A stretch of DNA of 30,084 nucleotides from a virus, in IMG/VR virus record IMGVR_UViG_3300030616_000002, positions 64,001-94,084 of that record; one strand, given 5' to 3'. Positions 2,964-30,083 of the stretch are shown piece after piece; the stretch's first letter is position 1; each line of letters opens with the position of its first letter. Position numbers and translations under genes: made by a program. The notes beneath the pieces were generated by a model. It searched no databases. It worked only from the letters and a program-made list of their open reading frames with translations, and was not told the DNA's origin.

Positions 2964-4082
2964 ATGGGCTTGTCCGTGGTAGTTACCAACTACGGGATCG
3001 GGGACAACTCGGTCCTAGTCGTCAACCGGGCGATCCTAGACGGCATGATCTTCAACGGGCTGCTAGCACGGAGCGGCAACCTCACCTACCAGGGCGACTC
3101 CAAGAAGCGCATGGCCTATACCGGGCTACCCGAGTATCAAGCGTTCGTTGAAAAGCACGGAGCCCCGGATGTCCTGATCGGGCAGGCGTCATTCGCGAAA
3201 AAGGTATTCCTCTGGGCCAAGGAGCACACGCCAGGGACCGTGCGTATTCTCCAGCGCGATTCTACGCACATGCGGACGTGGAAGGATCTGGTGGGCGCGG
3301 AGTACAAGCGGGTTGGCCTAGACCACGAGATCTCGGAGTCGCTGGTAAAGCACGAGGAGCACGAATACGAACTAGCCGACGCGATCACCGTGCTATCTCG
3401 CTGGGTAGAGCGCAGCTTTATAGACAGGGGGCTCGGGGACAAGACCTATTACGCCAGCCCGCAGACGATCATGCTGAATCGCTGGAAGCCGATGCCGCGG
3501 AAGAAAGACGGGATCCGGTTCCGGGTCATGGTCGCCGGGCAGTTCCGGGTAGCGAAGGGCACGCACCGAATCCTGAAAGCCTGGCGCGAGGTAAAGCCAG
3601 ACGCGGATCAGCAACTCGTGTTCTCCGGCGTGTATCCGGATCTCCCGCAGGACGAGCGCCAGTTCCTGGAGGCCGAGTACGAGGAGACCAGGAGAACCGC
3701 CAACACGAGGATCATCGGGTGGACTCCGGTAGAGCACATGTCTAACCGGTTTGCCGAGTGCGATTGCTACTGTCTGCCTAGCATCCAAGAAGGCTCCAGT
3801 ATGACCTGCGTCGAGGCGCTGACCTGCGGGCGGGCCCTGATAGCCTCTGACCGCTGCGGCTCGGATATCCTCGAAGAGAATGACGACTGCGGGCAGCTCG
3901 TATCCCTGGACGACGAACAGCACCTAAGGGATGCCCTTGAGCGCTACATGAGGAGCCCGAATTTAGTCAAGTTGCATGGGGAGCGCGGGCGAGAGCTGGC
4001 CCTGGAGTACGGCGGCATGGAGCGGTTCGGCCGAGACTATGCGACTACGGTCAAGCGAATATGGCACGACTTACGGTCCTAG
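2964..4082 (+). CDS. glycosyltransferase family 4-like protein
   Basis: A 372-residue GT-B glycosyltransferase of normal family length. The N-terminal Rossmann domain starts MGLSVVVTNYGIGDNSV. The domain junction (MVAGQFRVAKGTHRILKAW, about 190-208) carries the usual strand-glycine-lysine pattern, and the donor domain has CYCLPSIQEGSSMTCVEALT then CGRALIASD (about 268-297), where the E-x7-E-like pair and the following glycine contact the nucleotide-sugar in GT4 enzymes. It starts 3 bases after the upstream stop and overlaps the next gene by 22 bases. With the 791-1642 gene it makes two sugar transferases in one cassette with three methyltransferases, which suggests a methylated, at least disaccharide modification (inference). 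Confidence 0.83.
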   Translation: MGLSVVVTNYGIGDNSVLVVNRAILDGMIFNGLLARSGNLTYQGDSKKRMAYTGLPEYQAFVEKHGAPDVLIGQASFAKKVFLWAKEHTPGTVRILQRDSTHMRTWKDLVGAEYKRVGLDHEISESLVKHEEHEYELADAITVLSRWVERSFIDRGLGDKTYYASPQTIMLNRWKPMPRKKDGIRFRVMVAGQFRVAKGTHRILKAWREVKPDADQQLVFSGVYPDLPQDERQFLEAEYEETRRTANTRIIGWTPVEHMSNRFAECDCYCLPSIQEGSSMTCVEALTCGRALIASDRCGSDILEENDDCGQLVSLDDEQHLRDALERYMRSPNLVKLHGERGRELALEYGGMERFGRDYATTVKRIWHDLRS

Positions 4083-11339: not shown

Positions 11340-14300
11340 ATGGCAGAAGACACCCTTCGCGTATCCCTAGAGGCGGTTGACAAATCACTTACCAAGGTGA
11401 TGAAGGCCGCCGAGCGCGAAATGGAGAAGATGCGCAAGGGGGCGGTCACCACCTCAACCAGCGTTGACAAGTCGTTTAAGAGAATGGGCGCAAGCGCTGT
11501 GCGCGCATCAGCGATGATCTACGGCGGCGTCAAGCGGGTGATGCGCTCGCTCACCTCTCTCCAGGGCCTGCTGTTAGGGGGCGGGATAGTTATCGGCCTG
11601 AAGAAGGCGGTTACGGCATCCGTGAATTTCGAGAAGGGGCTGGCTGAGATCAGCACCCTACTCGACAACAAGGTCGGTCCGTCAATGCAGCGCTACGAGT
11701 CGGCGCTAAAGGAGATGGTCAAGACCTCTAGCCGTTCGCTGCAGGATCTAACCAAGGGTCTCTACCAGACGATCTCGGCGGGGATCACGGACTCGGGGAA
11801 GGCGCTCAAACTACTTGACGAGGCGCAGAAGGCGGCGGTCGCCGGCCTGACCGACGTGTCCGTTGCGGTGGACGCGGGGACAACGATTGTCAACGCGTTC
11901 GGCTTGGAAACCCACGAGGTAACACGCGCGTTTGACGTGCTCTTCCAAGTAGTTCGGAAGGGAAAAACCTGCGTAACGGGCGATACTAGGGTTCTGCTTG
12001 CTGACGGCAGATATGAGCGCATTGATAGTATGCGAGGAGAAAACGATATCGTTGCGTGGGATGGGCGCAACTTTACTCCAGCAACCGCCTCTTGGATTGC
12101 GATTGGAGAGAGAGAAACAGTTGCTCTGGTTACCAAGGGCGGCAGGAAGATCACAACCACACCAGACCACCCGTACTTGACCCAAGGGGGATGGAAAGAG
12201 GTAAGGGAATTAAAGCCAGGTGATAAGATCGCCGTGCCGGTTTCACTTTCGTTCTTTGGCACGGTCAATCCTGATGACGGCTGGCCGACACTCCTTGGGT
12301 ATTTGATCTCAGAGGGATCATTGCGCGACGGCAGTTCGCCTCGGTTTCATAACAAGGATGAGAAGGCGATCGAAGAGGTGCGCGACGCTGCGGAAAAACT
12401 CGGCGTCGAGATGCACATGGTTGTCGATAAGCCTAGTTGCAAGTCCTTTGATCTCGTAGCCCATGCCCGCGGGGGTAGATACCAGAACCCGATCATTGAG
12501 CGACTCCGGGAGTGCGGGTTGTGGGGCACCACGTGCGGTAACAAATTCATTCCTGCTGAGTGCTTTTCGTGGCGGCGTCAGCACATAGCCGAATTGCTGC
12601 GCACTCTATTCAACGGAGACGGCTGGCTTTGTCGTATGGGCAAAGCGGAGAGGGGCAATTCTCTTCTCCAGTTGGGATACGGGTCGAAGTCTGAGCAGCT
12701 TGTTAGAGATATTTCGCACCTGCTGACACGGTTTGGTATTTACGGGAGAGTAGAGAACCACAGGGGCTGGCGTTGGATTACGGCGCGCTACGTTGACATT
12801 AAGAGGTTCGTTGACTTCATTGATATAGATCGCCCATGCGCTGATTTGGTCAAGAACAACGAACTTGCAGATTGGACGCCGCGTGGATTCATTCGTAGTT
12901 CCGAGCGCAGTCCCAATAACCACAAGCAGTATCGCGGCATGCGCGATTTCAAATCTCCAGTTTACTATGATGCTATAAAGACTATCACCCCACGCGGCCC
13001 AGAAACAGTCTATGATCTAACTGTCCCGTCGCTGCACAACTTCGTTGCAAACGATATCGTTGCTCACAACACATTCGAGCCCCTCGCCGGAGCGATCGGC
13101 AAGGTAGCAACGATTGCCGCGCAGGCTGGAGTGAGCCTCGAAGAGGTTGGCGCGTCGATCTCGACGCTGACCAAGGCTGGACTCAATATCGATCTTGCGA
13201 CAACGTCGCTGCGGCAGCTCTTCGCTAATCTGCTGAAGCCGAGCAGGGAGGCAAAAGAGGCTCTTGTTGCTCTCGGCATCGGCTACGGCGACGCTGCTCT
13301 CCGCGGCGGAAACTTCACCAAGACGCTAAAGAAGATGCACGACGCCACTGGCGGCAACGCCGAGGCGCTCACGCACCTGATCCCCAACATCCGTGCGCTG
13401 CAAGCAGCGATGGTCCTGTCTGGCGATCAGATTGAAACCTATACCGCAGACCTCGACGCTATGAGCAAGTCGGCGGGCGTAGCCCACGAGGCGTTCCGCC
13501 GGATGTCCGAGACCTCGGCCGAGAAGCTCGCTATCCAGTGGCAACGGCTAGCGCTGGTCATGCAGGAGATAGGCGCGAAGCTGCTACCGGGTATCGTTGA
13601 CTGGCTAACCGAGTTCGCCGACTGGGCGGAGAATCACGGGCCGGAGATCGTTGAGGCGATCGATTCGATCCGTGGCGCGCTGGTTATGGTGTGGGATATT
13701 CTGACCGGAATCAAGAATACCGTTGTTGGCATTATCTCTGCTGCCATTGAATCGACTCCGGGCGGTCGTATTCTAATGCGACTGCTTGAGGGGCAGATGG
13801 AGACTGGTGCGTCGCACCGCGCGGCCGGGCGCGGCAGGGAGGCGGCGTTTGCTGCGCAGGTGCAACGAGAGGTACAGACCGCCACAATTCCGGTCGGTGG
13901 GTTTGAGGGCGCGCAGCGTAGGCTCTTGGGGGCGGGCAAGACCGGCAAGGAACGGCGCGCGGCCAAGGCGGGGGCTGTCGATGACTGGAAGTATCTGCAA
14001 CGGCTTGCGACTGAAAACCTCAAGTTTGCACAGACAACCGAGGACGCTGGCGAATCGCGTCTACACTGGGCCGTATCTGAAGCTATACAGCAGCAGGCAG
14101 ACGCGCTCAAGCACCTTATCGGCCAATATGAAACGCTAGGCGAGGTTGAGAAAAAGAATATGAAAGCCGCCCTTGATGCGGCGGAGGACAAGCTAGCGGC
14201 GCAGAAGAAACTCCGCGAGGATGCCAAAAAGACGTACGCGCGGACAATCAAATATCTCGATCGAGAACTAGGCAAGCGCGGCGACGTATTCGAGCAACTC

Positions 14301-15509
14301 GATAAGTGGTACCAGGACCTATACAAAATCGTTAAGAACAACCGCGAGGGTCTGGCCAAGCTAGATGAAGTGTACTTCGCGAAGCTAGAGGATCTCGTAG
14401 GGAAAGCCCAAGCGCTCCAGGAGAGGGCGGCAGAGAAGGTTACAGCCGCCTGGGCCAAGTTCCACAAGGAAGAGGAGGCATGGGCCAAGGGGCAGGCGGG
14501 GATCGGTACGTCGACGCTGCGTGAGCACGAAGAGGCTATAAGGACGGACAGGAGATTATCTGAAGCAGAAAAGAGGCGAGAGCTTATAGCCCTACGCAGC
14601 CGGGCGCGTGGTAGTCAAATGGGCGGCGAGATGCTGCGGGCTGGAGGGCCGGCCGTACAGGGGGCCGTTCAGGGTGGGGCAGCCGGCGGCGGGATAGGTG
14701 CTCTAATTGGGTTGATTGGCGCGATAGGCTTCACCGGCGGTGATACCAAAGAGGAGCAGGAAGAGAACCGCAAGAAGTTTGCCGACGACTGGGATAAGCG
14801 TACCGATAGGATGGGCGATGTAGCAGAGAATCTGACCAAGAATCTTACGCACATGCTCAACTCTACGCTGGAGAGATTGCCCGAAACGATTTCGAGGACA
14901 ATAGCAAAGCTTAACGTGGGCAAGATACTTGTGGATGGTGTATTTAGGGGTTTGGTTAAATTTTTCAAAAACTTTGGGAAAGAAATCGCCGACGCGTTCA
15001 AGGGTGGCGTGAAGAGCAAGGCAACCGGTATAGGGCTGGATCTACTAACTGGTATCCCTACCGGCGGGAAATTGCTCAAGTGGATCAAGAGTTGGCACGA
15101 AGGCGGAGTTATCGGGGCTCAGAGCTTCCACGATGGCGGCTCTGTGGGCCGGGCCGATGGCCTCGCCGCGGCCGTTATTCAGCGGGCGCACGACGGCATG
15201 GTAGCAAGAGCGAACGAACCGGTTGTCGGGCTTCGGCGTGATGAGGTTCCAATAATCGCCCAAGACGGAGAGGGCGTACTTTCTAGGCTGGGAATGCAGG
15301 CGCTCGGCGCTCTGAACGCTGGCAATATTCCGAGTGGACAGGTACCCGCGAGCAACGTCCAACTCAACTTCGGTGTAGTAACGACAGATGATGTTAGGGA
15401 GTGGGCCGACAGGGCTGTATCGGGTGCAATAAGCGAGGGTAACTTTACACCACCGGCGCTAGGCGGCCGGACGGGCCGGGTGCCCGGCCTGACTCGCAGG
15501 AGACGATAA
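11340..15509 (+). CDS. tail tape measure protein interrupted by an intein
   Basis: A 1389-residue precursor. Residues 211-577 are an intein; the spliced protein would be 1022 residues. The flanking parts form one phage-tail tape measure domain of the PhageMin_Tail (PF10145) type. Before the intein: FEKGLAEISTLLDN, LTKGLYQTISAGI, AVDAGTTIVNAFGL. After it: IGKVATIAAQAGVSLEEVGA and ISTLTKAGLNIDLATTSLRQ. Further on are a hydrophobic helical region (about 781-803), long charged helices likely to be coiled coil (about 890-1090), a glycine-rich hydrophobic span (GGGIGALIGLIGAIGF, about 1117-1132) and a C-terminal tail rich in Gly. Tape measure length sets tail length, so removing 367 residues matters for function. 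The ATG at 11340 follows GGACAGAGG. Confidence 0.9.
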   Translation: MAEDTLRVSLEAVDKSLTKVMKAAEREMEKMRKGAVTTSTSVDKSFKRMGASAVRASAMIYGGVKRVMRSLTSLQGLLLGGGIVIGLKKAVTASVNFEKGLAEISTLLDNKVGPSMQRYESALKEMVKTSSRSLQDLTKGLYQTISAGITDSGKALKLLDEAQKAAVAGLTDVSVAVDAGTTIVNAFGLETHEVTRAFDVLFQVVRKGKTCVTGDTRVLLADGRYERIDSMRGENDIVAWDGRNFTPATASWIAIGERETVALVTKGGRKITTTPDHPYLTQGGWKEVRELKPGDKIAVPVSLSFFGTVNPDDGWPTLLGYLISEGSLRDGSSPRFHNKDEKAIEEVRDAAEKLGVEMHMVVDKPSCKSFDLVAHARGGRYQNPIIERLRECGLWGTTCGNKFIPAECFSWRRQHIAELLRTLFNGDGWLCRMGKAERGNSLLQLGYGSKSEQLVRDISHLLTRFGIYGRVENHRGWRWITARYVDIKRFVDFIDIDRPCADLVKNNELADWTPRGFIRSSERSPNNHKQYRGMRDFKSPVYYDAIKTITPRGPETVYDLTVPSLHNFVANDIVAHNTFEPLAGAIGKVATIAAQAGVSLEEVGASISTLTKAGLNIDLATTSLRQLFANLLKPSREAKEALVALGIGYGDAALRGGNFTKTLKKMHDATGGNAEALTHLIPNIRALQAAMVLSGDQIETYTADLDAMSKSAGVAHEAFRRMSETSAEKLAIQWQRLALVMQEIGAKLLPGIVDWLTEFADWAENHGPEIVEAIDSIRGALVMVWDILTGIKNTVVGIISAAIESTPGGRILMRLLEGQMETGASHRAAGRGREAAFAAQVQREVQTATIPVGGFEGAQRRLLGAGKTGKERRAAKAGAVDDWKYLQRLATENLKFAQTTEDAGESRLHWAVSEAIQQQADALKHLIGQYETLGEVEKKNMKAALDAAEDKLAAQKKLREDAKKTYARTIKYLDRELGKRGDVFEQLDKWYQDLYKIVKNNREGLAKLDEVYFAKLEDLVGKAQALQERAAEKVTAAWAKFHKEEEAWAKGQAGIGTSTLREHEEAIRTDRRLSEAEKRRELIALRSRARGSQMGGEMLRAGGPAVQGAVQGGAAGGGIGALIGLIGAIGFTGGDTKEEQEENRKKFADDWDKRTDRMGDVAENLTKNLTHMLNSTLERLPETISRTIAKLNVGKILVDGVFRGLVKFFKNFGKEIADAFKGGVKSKATGIGLDLLTGIPTGGKLLKWIKSWHEGGVIGAQSFHDGGSVGRADGLAAAVIQRAHDGMVARANEPVVGLRRDEVPIIAQDGEGVLSRLGMQALGALNAGNIPSGQVPASNVQLNFGVVTTDDVREWADRAVSGAISEGNFTPPALGGRTGRVPGLTRRRR
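11970..13070 (+). mobile_element. intein with LAGLIDADG (DOD) homing endonuclease
   Basis: A 367-residue in-frame insert in the tape measure protein. Block A starts with Cys1 (CVTGDTRVLLADG). Block B has the T-x-x-H motif in TTTPDHPYLT (Thr64, His67), followed by LKPGDKIAVP. Two endonuclease motifs are seen: LLGYLISEGSL (108-118) and LLRTLFNGDGWL (209-220), each with the acidic residue expected for metal binding. The end is ETVYDLTVPSLHNFVANDIV then Ala-His-Asn, and the +1 extein residue is Thr. The splice junctions should be Lys-Thr|Cys and Asn|Thr. All catalytic splicing residues are present, so it should be active. Third-codon positions look less GC-rich than in the flanking tape measure sequence. 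Confidence 0.93.
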
Positions 15510-15510
15510 G

Positions 15511-18500
15511 ATGGCTCGACGTATAATGTGGGATCGTGCTGCTGACCCAACGCACGTTTACTCGGCGCTTGATAGCGGGGGAAATGCAGCAGAGGAAGGC
15601 GTCGAGGTTGATGCGCCTTCTGACTCCGCTGTTAGCGGTCTTATGGAAGTATTCGCTGGGGGCGCGCCAAGTGCGGCTGCAACGCGCAATCTAGACATCA
15701 TTCGTGGCGGCAACCTTGGCAGCGGCGAGTGGGGATGGAACAACGGCGGCACGCCGTTTTTTGGTGCGTGTGTGCCGTGGGTAATAGATAGGCCCGGCAG
15801 TTATGATAGGGATGCCGTTATCAATGTACCGCACAGGTTGCGTGGATACAGAGGCGCTAATACCGCGGCATCTATTTTTGTCCGTGATACAACAATCAGC
15901 TATAGACTTTATGTTCGCGGTACGGGTTGGACTGCGCGGTATGATATAGGTACCGTAGCAGCCGGATCGACGGCCGATTGCTTGGCATTTGAGGACACCC
16001 AAGAAATAATCGCATTTTGCGATGGCACTCTATATTCTACATTTGACCCAACTGACGCATCGTCTTGGGCGGTAAAGGGTACGACTGCGGGCTTTGCTGG
16101 TGGTGCTACAGATACACATATTGCGCTCGCTCACACCAGGGGGCAACTCGTATTGGCGTACATCAATGGCGCTAAAGTATATGTTAGGATTTCACACGAT
16201 CGTGGCGCAACGTGGGACGCCGCTGTATGTATTTCTGATAATTTCGAGGATGGGCTTTTAGGCGATGCAGATTCCTTGGATATGGCGATCAGCCCTACCG
16301 ATCAGAATTTTTATCTCTTAATTGAGGATGATACTACTGGCGCGGGGTCCGACGACAGGCTGGCGCTTTATAGATCAGCAGATGGTCTAGAGTGGGATCA
16401 ATTGAATAGCGACGTCGGTAACTGGAGCGTACTAAGTCGCGCGCTGCAAAATTGTTCATTACTGATGTTGGACGATGGTACGATGGTTGCCATTGTGATC
16501 GATGCCGACAACGGCACGGCGGCGGCCGCGTGGGTAGATAAAAACGGCCTGCAGCTAACAAGGACAGCTGGTGGCCAAGTAGAAACAACGGCGTGGCTGG
16601 GTGTGTCAAGCGATCTTTTGTGCGCTCCCGCGGTTAGTATGGGTCAAGAGATTTTGGCGTCGCCGATGATCGGCAATATCGGAGGATCTAATAAGGAGGT
16701 TCTTAATTCGGTTTTGTTGCGGTGGTGGTCGAACATCAGTGAGCAATATGGTTACGGGGGCATGTGTTGGCTCCCAAACGAGGAAGACGGGCCAGACTCG
16801 GGCTGGGGCTGGACTGCCAACGGGACCGGTACGGAAGGGCTGGCAACGGACAAGATTACGCTCTCTACTACAGACGCCAACAATCAACGATATTACAATC
16901 AGCAGTATGGGGCCGATGATGGCGATAAATTGAAATTCGGGGTTGAGTGCGTTTCCGATTGCGATAGGGCCAACAATAGGGTTGGGGTGAGAGTAGAGCG
17001 CCAAAACGCGGGCGGCTTTGGCTATGACTTCGGACTCTATTTTGATCAGAGCGGGGTTAGAATTTATGACCACGGCGCGGCGGCACAGTTAGCAGATATA
17101 ACGGCCGGCATGGATTTTTCGGTAATGAATGACGTGCTGGTTGACATTGATTTTGATGCCGCTGCCGGGGGGTGCGATATAAGCGTATGGGTACGAACCG
17201 AGAGCGATGGATATCCAGACGATGCGTGGGTGAACATCGCCAATGTGACGGCGGCAAACGCGGCCCCGCTTGTTGGCGCTGATTTCAGAATTGACTTTGG
17301 TAATTTTTCTTGGGTCGCTGGGCAGACGACTAGGAGCGTTTGGTACTATATGCTAATGGGCGTTATGGCTGAGGGGCTTAGCGCTACCTATGCGAATGCC
17401 GCAACAGACCACTCGGATCTTTACGGCCGCGCTTGCTCGTCTATGCCGCAAGAAATCACAGATAACATTTATGCGTGGTGGCGGGGTGCAGGCGGTGCCC
17501 CCGCGGACAGGTGGTCGCTTCCTACGCGGTACGTTTACGAGAAGGAAAACGTATTGCGCGCAGACCCAAAGCGGCAGTGGCGCAGTGACGATGACGAACA
17601 GATCGTTTACCTTGTATTCCATGACGATGACCTGAGGCCGTACCGCCCGGATTTTGTAGCTCTGTTTGGGATCAACTTTGAGAAGTTCTTTATAGATCTA
17701 GACGACGCGAGCACGTTTGATACCGGCGCAGGCAGCACGCCGGAGGTGACGATCCAAGTCGCGTGGGGTATGGCGGCCGGTGATGATGCTGTCGGCCTGT
17801 GCGCGCCAAATCTGAATGTTGATGTCGTTGCAGACGACTATATTCAGGTTGCGCCAGCAAACGCCCATGCTGCAGGCATGTGGAAGGGTCGATACGACAA
17901 GGACAAAAGCACTGGGCGGAAATTTTATCTGCGCATTCTTGACGGCAATAAGTCTGGAGAGGTTTACCGAATTGAATCAATCCAGAACCTAGATGATAAT
18001 GATAGAGCCAGCTGGCAGATACGGCTTGCGCCAAATGCTGACGGCAGTTATCCGGAACTTGTTGACGTATCTCCCGTGTCGATCAATGACAAGGTGGGGA
18101 TTTTCAGCGACGCTATAGCGGTCGAGATCCCGACCGCTTACTATCGGGCGAGCGGTTACAAGTATGTGCGTATCAGGATTCCGAGCCAGGAAACATGGGA
18201 GGGAGATTATCGCGCGGGCTATATTTGTTGGGGTATGAGCGTGCCGCTTGGCTTCCGTCCGCGAGCGGCTGGCCCCGAGCCTACGTTGCCGAAGATCGCC
18301 GACGCTGAATATGACTCATCTATAGATATTTCACCCAATATAGCGACCATAACCGCACCGGACGGCAGCGTAACCAAGCGACGCAATGGACGCGCGCCAA
18401 GAGTAGTTGCCTTGCGGTGGACGGGGCAGTACGGGCGTAGCGCATGGGATAGCGCGGTCAGGTCGATGCTTGAGGCGGCGGCGGGAGACGTACCCCTCGT

Positions 18501-18714
18501 GTTCATAGAAGATGATCATTTTCAGCACAACGGTCCAGAGGCACCGAGCGGAGATCCTGCGAAGGTTTGTTACGATCCGATCCTTGCTTATCTCGAAGGC
18601 GCGGTTAAAACAACCCAGCGCGGTTATCGTCTCTATACTCCAAACGAATGCGCAGTATCGCTGCGCGGCACATTTACCGATGTTGCCGGGATCGTAATGA
18701 AGGAGATCGTCTAA
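15511..18714 (+). CDS. large distal tail protein with BNR/Asp-box motifs
   Basis: A 1067-residue protein starting one base after the tape measure stop. Its first third has the look of a beta-propeller: Asp-box motifs SHDRGATW (residues 228-235) and SADGLEW (289-295) follow the S-x-D-x-G-x-x-W pattern, and strands such as THIALAHTRGQLVLAYI alternate with them. The middle resembles a carbohydrate-binding jelly roll (RYYNQQYGADDGDKLKFGVE). The C-terminal ~200 residues (SIDISPNIATITAPDGSVTK, then ALRWTGQYGRSAWDSAVRSM) look like a distal-tail/hub-type domain found directly after tape measure genes. Asp-boxes occur in sialidases and other glycan-facing propellers but do not prove enzyme activity. 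Role: distal tail or host-recognition protein. The stop overlaps the next ATG by one base. Confidence 0.7.
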   Translation: MARRIMWDRAADPTHVYSALDSGGNAAEEGVEVDAPSDSAVSGLMEVFAGGAPSAAATRNLDIIRGGNLGSGEWGWNNGGTPFFGACVPWVIDRPGSYDRDAVINVPHRLRGYRGANTAASIFVRDTTISYRLYVRGTGWTARYDIGTVAAGSTADCLAFEDTQEIIAFCDGTLYSTFDPTDASSWAVKGTTAGFAGGATDTHIALAHTRGQLVLAYINGAKVYVRISHDRGATWDAAVCISDNFEDGLLGDADSLDMAISPTDQNFYLLIEDDTTGAGSDDRLALYRSADGLEWDQLNSDVGNWSVLSRALQNCSLLMLDDGTMVAIVIDADNGTAAAAWVDKNGLQLTRTAGGQVETTAWLGVSSDLLCAPAVSMGQEILASPMIGNIGGSNKEVLNSVLLRWWSNISEQYGYGGMCWLPNEEDGPDSGWGWTANGTGTEGLATDKITLSTTDANNQRYYNQQYGADDGDKLKFGVECVSDCDRANNRVGVRVERQNAGGFGYDFGLYFDQSGVRIYDHGAAAQLADITAGMDFSVMNDVLVDIDFDAAAGGCDISVWVRTESDGYPDDAWVNIANVTAANAAPLVGADFRIDFGNFSWVAGQTTRSVWYYMLMGVMAEGLSATYANAATDHSDLYGRACSSMPQEITDNIYAWWRGAGGAPADRWSLPTRYVYEKENVLRADPKRQWRSDDDEQIVYLVFHDDDLRPYRPDFVALFGINFEKFFIDLDDASTFDTGAGSTPEVTIQVAWGMAAGDDAVGLCAPNLNVDVVADDYIQVAPANAHAAGMWKGRYDKDKSTGRKFYLRILDGNKSGEVYRIESIQNLDDNDRASWQIRLAPNADGSYPELVDVSPVSINDKVGIFSDAIAVEIPTAYYRASGYKYVRIRIPSQETWEGDYRAGYICWGMSVPLGFRPRAAGPEPTLPKIADAEYDSSIDISPNIATITAPDGSVTKRRNGRAPRVVALRWTGQYGRSAWDSAVRSMLEAAAGDVPLVFIEDDHFQHNGPEAPSGDPAKVCYDPILAYLEGAVKTTQRGYRLYTPNECAVSLRGTFTDVAGIVMKEIV

Positions 18715-20375
18715 TGCGATCGCGGGCTCTGACGGGGTGGAGCACTACGGCAGATAACCCGTCAGTTAGAACTGCATTCGTGGTAACTATTTCCGACCAA
18801 GATAAGTTTGAGGTTAGGTTTGCTACGAATACGGATTTTGAGAACGAAACTGACGGCGATTGGAAGTTGCGCCCCGGGTTGAAAACCGATCTTGACGGCC
18901 TGACCGTTGAGGTAGACCCGCGACAGCAGGGAGCCCCAATGCCTAGCATCCCGGAGATAAAAATAGACGCTGCGGCGATGCGCGAACTTTTCGGCGGATC
19001 GTTTTTGAAAAACCCGGGAGCGCTCAAGATTGAGATCTCGCTGATTTCCGAAAAAATAGCGTGGGCAAATCGTATTGTGATCGTTTCCGGCGTATATATC
19101 AACCCCAATTCTGTGTATTATAGCGATGGCGCGATGTCTTTCGGTGTAATGGATCCGCTAGATCGCGGCAAGGTATTACTACCACGAAAACTGATCGACG
19201 CAAGTAAGTTGCCGTGGACTGCTGATTACCTGCAACAGAATGTCACCGGGATGCCGTTCCCGATCTGCTACGGCAGCGTCTACAGAAGCGCGCCAATAAA
19301 GGCATACGATGACGGAGGTGCCGGAAACGCGGACCAAACGCAACCTATTCGGCGATATATATTGTGCGGGCATCAGTGCTCTGGCTCTAGCGCAACGGTA
19401 CATCGAACAAGCGCCGAGGTAGCCGCCCAATTTGGTGGCGGCTGGGCAGATATAAGTGAAACTATACTAACCGCAAAAACAACGGACGGGGTCGTTTTTT
19501 CATATATTGAGACAGATGGTGCGACCGGAGACGAAGATCCGACTGCAACGCCCCCTAAAGAATGTCATGCGATTAGCTTTGGTGCTACCAGTGGCGTCAA
19601 GGCAACGGCGGGTGGTGTGATTCGCGATCTGCTTGAGCGGTGGACCGATATTGAATTTGATGAAACGCTGGCGCGCGGCGTATCGCTTGTAGTAGAGGCT
19701 CTTGGGTCGCCCGTATCCGTAATCATCAACGGCGAGGGGCGTGATCGCGCAAGCATTAAGGAGCTGATCGATCAGAGGTTCGCGACGCAGTTTCGATTAC
19801 TGACCGCGCGGTTTGGCGGATCTATGTTTTTGTTTCCGCTTAATAAGATAATGAACGAGCCTGGCGTTGGCTATATGAAGCCAGCCGCGGTGCTGCCGCT
19901 TGGAGGCGAGTGCCACGTGCGTGGCGAGATTCGCGAGTCGGCCGATATAGGGAATTATTTTGAGGCCCGTTATGCACAGCGAGAAAGCGGTGGATTTGAC
20001 GGACTAGTGACGCTGGGCCCCGATTCCGACTTTGGCTGCGAGCGCAGCCGGAGCTACTACGGCCGGAGAGAATGGAGTTCGATTGAGTTGCCCGATGTAG
20101 CGGTCGGGGCAACCGCTGGCGCGATATTGTCTTATTTGCGCGGGGTCGCTTTGGAGCCCTGGTATGAAACGGAGATCTTCGCGCCCCTCAACTACTCGTA
20201 TCTTTCGGCGGCATTAAAGGTTCGATTGCTTTACGCGGATGAGAAAAAAATAGCCGATAACTGCCCGCGCTTTAGACACAACCTAGATCATGACACATCC
20301 GAGGAATGGCGGGATGCCTTGATAACCAAGATACGCTACACCAAGGCGGGGTTGTGGCTGTCGGTCGCGTTTTAG
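18714..20375 (+). CDS. minor tail / baseplate hub-like protein
   Basis: A 553-residue protein. The ATG at 18714 overlaps the upstream stop (TAATG) and replaces a longer in-frame start inside the upstream gene. Segments such as FVVTISDQDKFEVRFATN at the N-terminus, MPFPICYGSVYRSAPIKAY in the middle, and DLLERWTDIEFDETLARGVS with SIKELIDQRFATQFRLLTAR further on are typical of siphovirus tail proteins that follow the distal tail protein. The 'f..li...~q~~~~l~~~~g~l~l~P' pattern recalls hub proteins that carry the tail tip. No enzymatic motif is seen. Its stop overlaps the convergent lipoprotein gene by 4 bases, marking the end of the tail module. Codon use is more AT-ending than in the tube region. 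Confidence 0.62.
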   Translation: MRSRALTGWSTTADNPSVRTAFVVTISDQDKFEVRFATNTDFENETDGDWKLRPGLKTDLDGLTVEVDPRQQGAPMPSIPEIKIDAAAMRELFGGSFLKNPGALKIEISLISEKIAWANRIVIVSGVYINPNSVYYSDGAMSFGVMDPLDRGKVLLPRKLIDASKLPWTADYLQQNVTGMPFPICYGSVYRSAPIKAYDDGGAGNADQTQPIRRYILCGHQCSGSSATVHRTSAEVAAQFGGGWADISETILTAKTTDGVVFSYIETDGATGDEDPTATPPKECHAISFGATSGVKATAGGVIRDLLERWTDIEFDETLARGVSLVVEALGSPVSVIINGEGRDRASIKELIDQRFATQFRLLTARFGGSMFLFPLNKIMNEPGVGYMKPAAVLPLGGECHVRGEIRESADIGNYFEARYAQRESGGFDGLVTLGPDSDFGCERSRSYYGRREWSSIELPDVAVGATAGAILSYLRGVALEPWYETEIFAPLNYSYLSAALKVRLLYADEKKIADNCPRFRHNLDHDTSEEWRDALITKIRYTKAGLWLSVAF

Positions 20376-29016: not shown

Positions 29017-29310
29017 ATGCGCTACGGCGGGAGATCAGGCGGCAGGAAAAACGCTACAACGGCGGCAACGAGATCCCGCAGCGGAGGCAGCGCCGTGCGC
29101 GCGCCAGATGAGATCACGCTGAAGAGGATCTCCGTTGCGCTCCCCAAAACTTTGGTCGACAAGGCGCGGCGCGTGGTCAACACGATGCAGATCCACGACG
29201 AGAACTACAGCCTACGGACGCTGTTCACCCATGCGCTCCAGGCCGAGTTCCATCGGCTAGCCAAGATTACGAAAGAGGGAGCTACGATCCTACGGATGAT
29301 CCGCGACTAG
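29017..29310 (+). CDS. ribbon-helix-helix DNA-binding protein
   Basis: A 97-residue basic protein. The N-terminal ~30 residues are Gly/Arg/Ser-rich and likely disordered. Residues 36-82 read as a ribbon-helix-helix domain: strand KRISVALPK, helix TLVDKARRVVNTM, then the YSLRTLFTHALQAEFHRLA helix. CopG/MetJ/ParG-type proteins of this build dimerise and bind short palindromes in tandem through the strand. Arrays of the 4-bp palindrome CTAG nearby are natural candidates for its sites (inference). The start at 29017 has only a weak GGGTAG ribosome binding site; a shorter product from an internal GTG is possible. It overlaps the convergent gene by 21 bases. Confidence 0.68.
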   Translation: MRYGGRSGGRKNATTAATRSRSGGSAVRAPDEITLKRISVALPKTLVDKARRVVNTMQIHDENYSLRTLFTHALQAEFHRLAKITKEGATILRMIRD

Positions 29311-29682
29311 CGTCCCGGATGGCTCGGGCGAGAGGTGGACATGTGCGAAGTCGCCGATGTACGATCGCCTGCGCTTTGAACAGCGGATTTTGCGCAAACC
29401 GATTTCTTCTATCTGCCTGATGCGTTCCCGCGTGCGATTGTAATATCGCGCGATCTCCTCTAGCGTTGTGCCGCCGCGATCCGCTATGTCTAGGGCGCAC
29501 GTCTCCTCTAGCTCCCACGGCTCACAATTTGGGTGCGTTAGATTCACCGCCCCCGTCTCCGGGCTGACGGATAGGTAGAGGTGGTATCTGCAGCCGACCC
29601 ACGGGCAGGGGCGCGGGCCATCAATGCAGTCGGCCCGGGTACGCGGGCGCCTGAGATACGGGGGGATCGTTTTCGTGGTCAT
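29290..29682 (-). CDS. sigma-70 region 4-like DNA-binding protein
   Basis: A 130-residue protein; ATG at 29682 follows GGAGGTGCTCC and overlaps the upstream stop (ATGA). Residues about 72-100 match sigma-70 region 4.2: [20 protein letters not shown] followed by EEIGLRKIR, the helix-turn-helix that reads -35 elements. The N-terminal part has a C-x4-C pair in [15 protein letters not shown] and further Cys ([12 protein letters not shown]), possibly metal-binding. No region 2 is present, so it is not a complete sigma factor. It may be a regulator or an appropriator-like factor that steers host RNA polymerase. The glycine-rich longer frame upstream is a shadow of the alanine-rich gene. Confidence 0.72.
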
Positions 29683-30083
29683 TGGAGCACCTCCAATGCT
29701 TCGACCACGACGCCGAGCTGCCAGGCGTGCTCCGCTTCCCACGCCGCATCCGCCGCCTCCGCCGCCCGAGCCGCCGCCTCCGCCGCCCGAGCCGCCGCCT
29801 CCGCCGCCCGAGCCGCCGCCGCCTCCGCCCGAGCCGCCCACGCCGCCGCCCGAGCCGCCGCATCCGTCGCCCACGCCGCCGCCTCCGCCGCCGCCCGAGC
29901 CGCCGCCCACGCCGCCGCCCACGCCGCCGCCTCCGCCGCCGCCCGAGCCGCCGCCCACGCCGCCGCCTCGCTCCGATCCTCGCCGGACAGCCAACGCCGA
30001 GCCCACCGCTCCACCGCGGACACGCCGCAGTGCAGCGCGTGATTCCGCACGGCGCGATCCGCGATCTGGCCCAACACCGGCTT
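29679..30083 (-). CDS. alanine-rich repeat protein (Imm5-like), 5' end cut by right edge
   Basis: The frame is open to the right edge; if it starts inside the window, GTG at 30077 gives 132 residues. After QIADRAVRNHALHCGVSAVE and WARRWLSGEDRSE come about 75 residues of Ala-rich helix with regularly placed Trp, Arg and Glu (AAAWAAARAAAEAAAWAAAW), then a normal ending [18 protein letters not shown]. Proteins with an ADRAV-type head and an A-A-x-A-A-x tail are often listed as Imm5-like putative immunity proteins. In phages their role is unknown. The other two reverse frames give Gly-rich or Arg-rich nonsense. Coupling (ATGA) to the sigma-like gene supports this frame. Confidence 0.62.
   Translation of the reverse strand, partial: KPVLGQIADRAVRNHALHCGVSAVERWARRWLSGEDRSEAAAWAAARAAAEAAAWAAAWAAARAAAEAAAWATDAAARAAAWAARAEAAAARAAEAAARAAEAAARAAEAADAAWEAEHAWQLGVVVEALEVLQ
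29740..29975. repeat. GC-rich triplet/hexamer repeat in the alanine-rich gene
   Basis: Nearly the whole stretch is built from GCCGCC, TCCGCC, CGAGCC and CACGCC hexamers on the top strand. Several 15- to 30-base blocks are repeated exactly. Such DNA is prone to slippage, so the length of the encoded Ala-rich helix may vary between isolates, and assembly errors here are possible. Confidence 0.75.

Follow-up and report, generated by a model that had tools for sequence, protein, structure and literature searches.

A class 1 intein with a putative homing endonuclease interrupts the tail tape measure gene of uncultured viruses

Introduction

Inteins favour the most conserved motifs of their host proteins, and the Walker A motif (P-loop) is a classic hotspot for them. 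The locus described here raises the question of what such an element is doing in a gene for the tail tape measure protein (TMP): is it a mobile element in an unexpected place, or a device with which the phage controls tail assembly? The DNA analysed (the window) comprises 30,084 nucleotides, which are bases 64001-94084 of the 94,084-base metagenomic virus record IMGVR_UViG_3300030616_000002 in IMG/VR. A preliminary description had placed an endonuclease-bearing intein within the tape measure gene and had proposed that its splicing could gate virion formation. Our analysis indicates that this is an ordinary mobile intein whose host is an unusual, essential structural gene. From sequence comparison, we consider it very probable that the insert is a mobile class 1 intein with a probably active homing endonuclease, and that it would splice to give a TMP of 1022 aa.

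The intein and its host gene

The features of the interrupted gene are as follows.

11340..15509, plus strand: TMP precursor, 1389 aa (PF10145, TIGR01760 and many PHROG families)
11340..11969, plus strand: N-extein, ending ...FQVVRKGKT (aligns without gaps to homologues with and without the intein)
11970..13070, plus strand: class 1 intein (Cys1...His-Asn), 367 aa (Pfam, NCBIfam and PDB matches, AlphaFold/Foldseek)
11970..12266, plus strand, inner border approximate: Hint N-terminal part, blocks A and B, with C1 and T64-x-x-H67 (TIGR01445, precursor residues 211-281; PDB DnaB and RecA inteins)
12267..12950, plus strand, borders approximate: LAGLIDADG homing endonuclease part (PF14528; AlphaFold model, Foldseek)
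12291..12317, plus strand: LAGLIDADG motif 1, LLGYLISEG, acidic residue E115 (Gly110, Glu115 and Gly116 invariant in 14 inteins)
12594..12623, plus strand: LAGLIDADG motif 2, LLRTLFNGDG, acidic residue D217 (Gly216, Asp217 and Gly218 invariant in 14 inteins)
12951..13070, plus strand: Hint C-terminal part, blocks F and G, VYDLTVPSLHNFVANDIVAHN (TIGR01443; PDB Npu DnaB intein C-terminus)
13071..15509, plus strand: C-extein, starting with the +1 Thr, TFEPLAG... (matches to TIGR01760 and PF10145 continue from residues 577-578)

The host gene is identified by tape_meas_TP901 (TIGR01760, 1.1e-25, NCBIfam), by PhageMin_Tail (PF10145, 8.4e-22, Pfam) and by many tape measure matches among the PHROGs. 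PF10145 matches in two pieces, the second of which starts from profile position 91 directly after the intein, and the PhageMin_Tail/TP901 domain becomes continuous once the insert is omitted; the earlier observation that this domain is split is thus borne out. The length of 1022 aa without the intein is computed from the ORF. Two ORFs lie directly after the TMP gene (15511-18714, 1067 aa; 18648-20375, 575 aa), for which neither a Pfam match nor a significant PHROG match was found. Upstream of the tail genes there is a group of glycosyltransferase/methyltransferase-type genes (791-1642, 2964-4082, 206-787 and 2277-2960), comprising two glycosyltransferases of group 1, an RMNT_CmcI-like methyltransferase (6.3e-6) and a weak Methyltransf_24 match, which may form a sugar-decoration cluster of the phage. 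An ORF on the minus strand (29290-30006, 238 aa) matches sigma-70 region 4 (1.8e-7) and is possibly a phage sigma-like factor. No terminase was detected in the record with the two Pfam families searched.

The insert begins with C1-V-T-G-D-T-R, its Cys1 codon being at 11970, and ends with H-N, the terminal Asn codon closing at 13070, after which the extein resumes with T-F-E-P. The residues of a class 1 intein are complete (Cys1, T64-x-x-H67, H366-N367 and the +1 Thr), block B reading T64-P-D-H67. Profile searches of the TMP ORF gave Intein_splicing (PF14890, 7.4e-20) and LAGLIDADG_3 (PF14528, 1.2e-11) in Pfam, together with intein_Nterm (8.4e-9, from residue 211) and intein_Cterm (9.9e-7) in NCBIfam, and both ends match DnaB and RecA inteins among solved structures. 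A chance match is excluded because of these E-values and the independent homologues described below. The borders, the length and the splicing motifs given in the preliminary description therefore stand exactly as they were, and so do its two LAGLIDADG motifs, both of which are intact. C1, T64, H67, E115, D217, H366 and N367 are invariant in all 14 distinct complete inteins, that of the window included. The AlphaFold model of the intein (pLDDT 82.5, pTM 0.83) has a Hint and an endonuclease fold; its best Foldseek match is TliVMA (1.3e-22), followed by PhoVMA, PI-PfuI and PI-SceI, each of which is a complete intein with an endonuclease, and matches to DnaB inteins further support the Hint fold. 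The endonuclease is probably active. The GC content of the intein is 52.6% as against 58.7-59.2% in the exteins (57% versus 66-76% at third positions), and it is the sole intein match in the 94,084-base record.

Empty sites and the register of insertion

Using the joined exteins as query, we retrieved 80 TMP homologues as an empty-site set. All 80 lack the insert, which rules out the 367 residues as a conserved virion domain. The site motif is GKTTF in 46 of these intein-less proteins and starts with GKT in 65, so the joined sequence that the earlier account had anticipated in homologues does exist; the window TMP after excision would likewise read GKTTF. The best intein-less relative of the window TMP is 42% identical, and no close one was found. 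A much closer pair is found elsewhere, where locus L024 bears the intein and L077, with an extein protein 89% identical, is a clean empty site in which GAGGGTAAA is directly followed by ACTAATTTC.

The extein alignment is ungapped at the insertion site. In the relatives the intein separates Lys from the first Thr (GK^TTF, GK^TDF and once GQ^TDF, where ^ marks the insertion point), while in the window it separates the two Thr (GKT^TF) and lies one codon downstream. GK^TTF and GKT^TF are both predicted to restore GKTTF on splicing, an indication that exact splicing has been selected for. The shift may have arisen by a slip at the tandem Thr codons during homing repair. Since the register of the window intein is unique, splicing efficiency is not transferable to it from the relatives.

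The motif GK^T resembles Walker A. We considered whether the TMP is a P-loop ATPase and rejected this, as no ATPase family matched in Pfam, NCBIfam or PHROGs and the GKTT domain is all-helical. In the model of an intein-less homologous domain (L053, pLDDT 96.4), GKTT occupies residues 119-122, within the loop that links helix 102-118 to helix 123-129, and a fold search of the PDB with the TMP domain gave no significant match. Gly119 does not vary among 43 homologues, and Lys120 and Thr122 hardly do. A location in this highly conserved loop fits the preference of inteins for conserved motifs.

Distribution of the intein

IMG/VR was scanned with three queries, namely the single protein, an alignment and a DNA pattern matching the conserved N-terminus. 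This revealed at least 17 further uncultured viral contigs, several of them nearly identical, whose tape measure gene is interrupted at that motif by a related intein (loci L003-L010, L022, L025-L029, L033, L036, L037 and L039). The site in these relatives is GK^T, once GQ^T, the reading frames are kept on both sides, and their inteins are 43-53% identical to that of the window. Pfam confirms both domains in nine of these contigs, and all 14 matches of the DNA pattern are tape measure contigs already in the set. In the intein tree the 14 distinct complete TMP inteins form one clade (support 100/100), whose position among the inteins of DnaB, TerL, AAA_24 and dCTP deaminase is without branch support, so that the tree singles out no P-loop intein as their source.

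A scan of prokaryotes (one genome per species, about 85,000 species) yielded 36 loci, which include no TMP intein and have other junctions, such as DnaB, DnaE, RecA and dCTP deaminase. None of the 51 intein matches in isolated phages is annotated as TMP, most being terminase, portal or helicase, and the unannotated matches H41 and H44 sit in terminase-like sequence; on plasmids, none of seven intein matches is annotated as TMP. The words tail, tape and virion are absent from the main text of a survey of mycobacteriophage inteins (PMC5050341), and we found no description of a TMP intein in the open PMC literature. The earlier view that a tape measure gene is an unusual host for an intein thus holds, with caution, and on the scope of that search we make no claim of priority.

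Some other inteins were observed besides. In one viral contig (L034, 4860-6725) an AAA_24 P-loop ATPase is interrupted at GK^TT by an intein that belongs to the same length class (355 aa) and is 31% identical to the window intein. Proteobacterial inteins occur at LGK^STYARCG (L141, L144, L154, L156 and L168, with L156 a dCTP deaminase by Pfam). A terminase-like ORF (L013, 4-4356) seemingly has two intein-like inserts in one protein, and DnaB of an Abditibacterium MAG (L142, 3945-7937) has two inteins in one gene.

Horizontal spread and selection

On the TMP tree (94 rows), the presence of the intein requires seven changes, at least six of which are forced by well-supported branches. Dividing intein by extein tree distances gives a ratio of about 0.85 for near pairs and of 0.32 for far ones; the near-pair value shows that the intein does not merely evolve more slowly. 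For L026 and L028, for example, the distance is 4.96 in the extein and 0.96 in the intein, deep extein distances being near saturation, and the raw identity is 33% and 59%, respectively. A formal test of topological conflict between intein and extein is only suggestive (p 0.084), so that horizontal spread is argued here from branch lengths, from raw identities and from where the intein is present or absent. Taken in this way, the sequence data indicate that the TMP intein spreads horizontally among phage tail genes. Moreover, dN/dS between L030 and L032 is 0.059 in the intein, 0.053 in its endonuclease part and 0.052-0.058 in the exteins, which implies that a functional endonuclease is being maintained, in this lineage at any rate.

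Proposed mechanism and alternative explanations

We propose that the whole gene would be translated as a single chain of 1389 aa, from which the Hint domain would excise itself by standard splicing, with Cys1 and the +1 Thr as nucleophiles and cyclisation of Asn367, to yield the 1022-aa TMP with GKTTF restored. When phage genomes share a cell, the endonuclease would cut intein-less TMP genes at the conserved GKTT codons, and repair would copy the intein into the cut gene; we infer this homing step because of the sporadic distribution, the horizontal spread and the purifying selection. The intein would then be retained because, in an essential gene and within so highly conserved a loop, only exact loss is tolerated; a benefit to the phage would not be required.

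That splicing precedes tail assembly, as the preliminary description held, is plausible, as a folded insert of 367 aa should not fit the tail tube, and a globular insert of this size, placed in a TMP-domain loop, should hinder assembly until it is excised. This would suit a regulated switch, in which splicing conditional on redox state, phage stage or a chaperone delays tail assembly, and passages in PMC6195587 and PMC5790916 describe conditional splicing for other inteins, including those of helicase and RadA. However, all 80 scanned related TMPs do without the intein, close relatives differ in its presence, and no regulatory feature was found, while the horizontal movement and the purifying selection on the endonuclease are what is expected of a selfish element. 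We therefore regard such a switch as highly improbable, and think it scarcely more likely that slow or conditional splicing of the TMP serves as a timer or checkpoint for which the phage has recruited a parasitic intein; splicing as a gate on virion formation is thus unlikely. Distribution and selection together form the pattern of a selfish element, for which no regulatory role is called for.

It might also be supposed that the intein is dead, leaving either a defective phage or an insert kept as a virion domain. The window is unique in its one-codon offset, which places Thr rather than Lys at position -1, and this speaks for a dead intein, whereas the splicing residues are all intact within a single open frame, either register restores GKTTF, the homologues have no insert and related inteins show a dN/dS of about 0.06; we hold it to be extremely unlikely. 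The probability of an assembly chimera is close to negligible, for although the record is a metagenomic contig, the arrangement recurs at this site, in frame on both sides, in 17 independent contigs. The evidence thus favours a splicing, mobile intein.

Significance and comparison with known systems

The gene of a virion tail protein is hereby added as a host and a site for inteins, with a polymorphic family of which complete examples occur at one site. The insertion motif suggests that a Walker A-like GK^T sequence is sufficient for an endonuclease to become established in a non-ATPase. The shift by one codon, which leaves the mature protein unchanged, offers a natural experiment on the movement of an insertion site. 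Furthermore, an annotation that ignores the intein overestimates the length of the tape measure, and hence the predicted tail length, by 367 residues.

The mycobacteriophage terminase inteins TerL1-a and TerL1-b, which lie one residue apart at a GKT motif (PMC5050341), are likewise found in an essential phage gene and show an offset like that of GK^TTF and GKT^TF. TerL, however, is an ATPase with a true Walker A motif, whereas the TMP is an all-helical structural protein with GKTT in an inter-helix loop, and the phage TerL inteins are only about 22-25% identical to the window intein. TliVMA and PhoVMA (PDB 7qsu, 7qss and 7qst; PMC8966425), inserted at the VMA-b site in the P-loop of the V-type ATPase A subunit, and PI-SceI have the same architecture of a Hint domain and a two-motif LAGLIDADG endonuclease, but they are 14-18% identical to the window intein and reside in an unrelated protein of archaeal or yeast hosts. 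The dCTP deaminase inteins, one of which, from cyanophage CL131, excises in E. coli (PMC6293099), form a separate clade in a metabolic enzyme rather than a virion protein; they resemble the TMP inteins in having a GK^S(T) site in a non-P-loop protein, a likeness seen in the bacterial loci L156, L168 and their kin. A parallel in host gene is phage ICP1, in which a homing element also interrupts the tape measure gene, but there it is an HNH endonuclease removed by splicing of the transcript, with no intein (PMC10448857), whereas the element described here would be removed from the protein itself.
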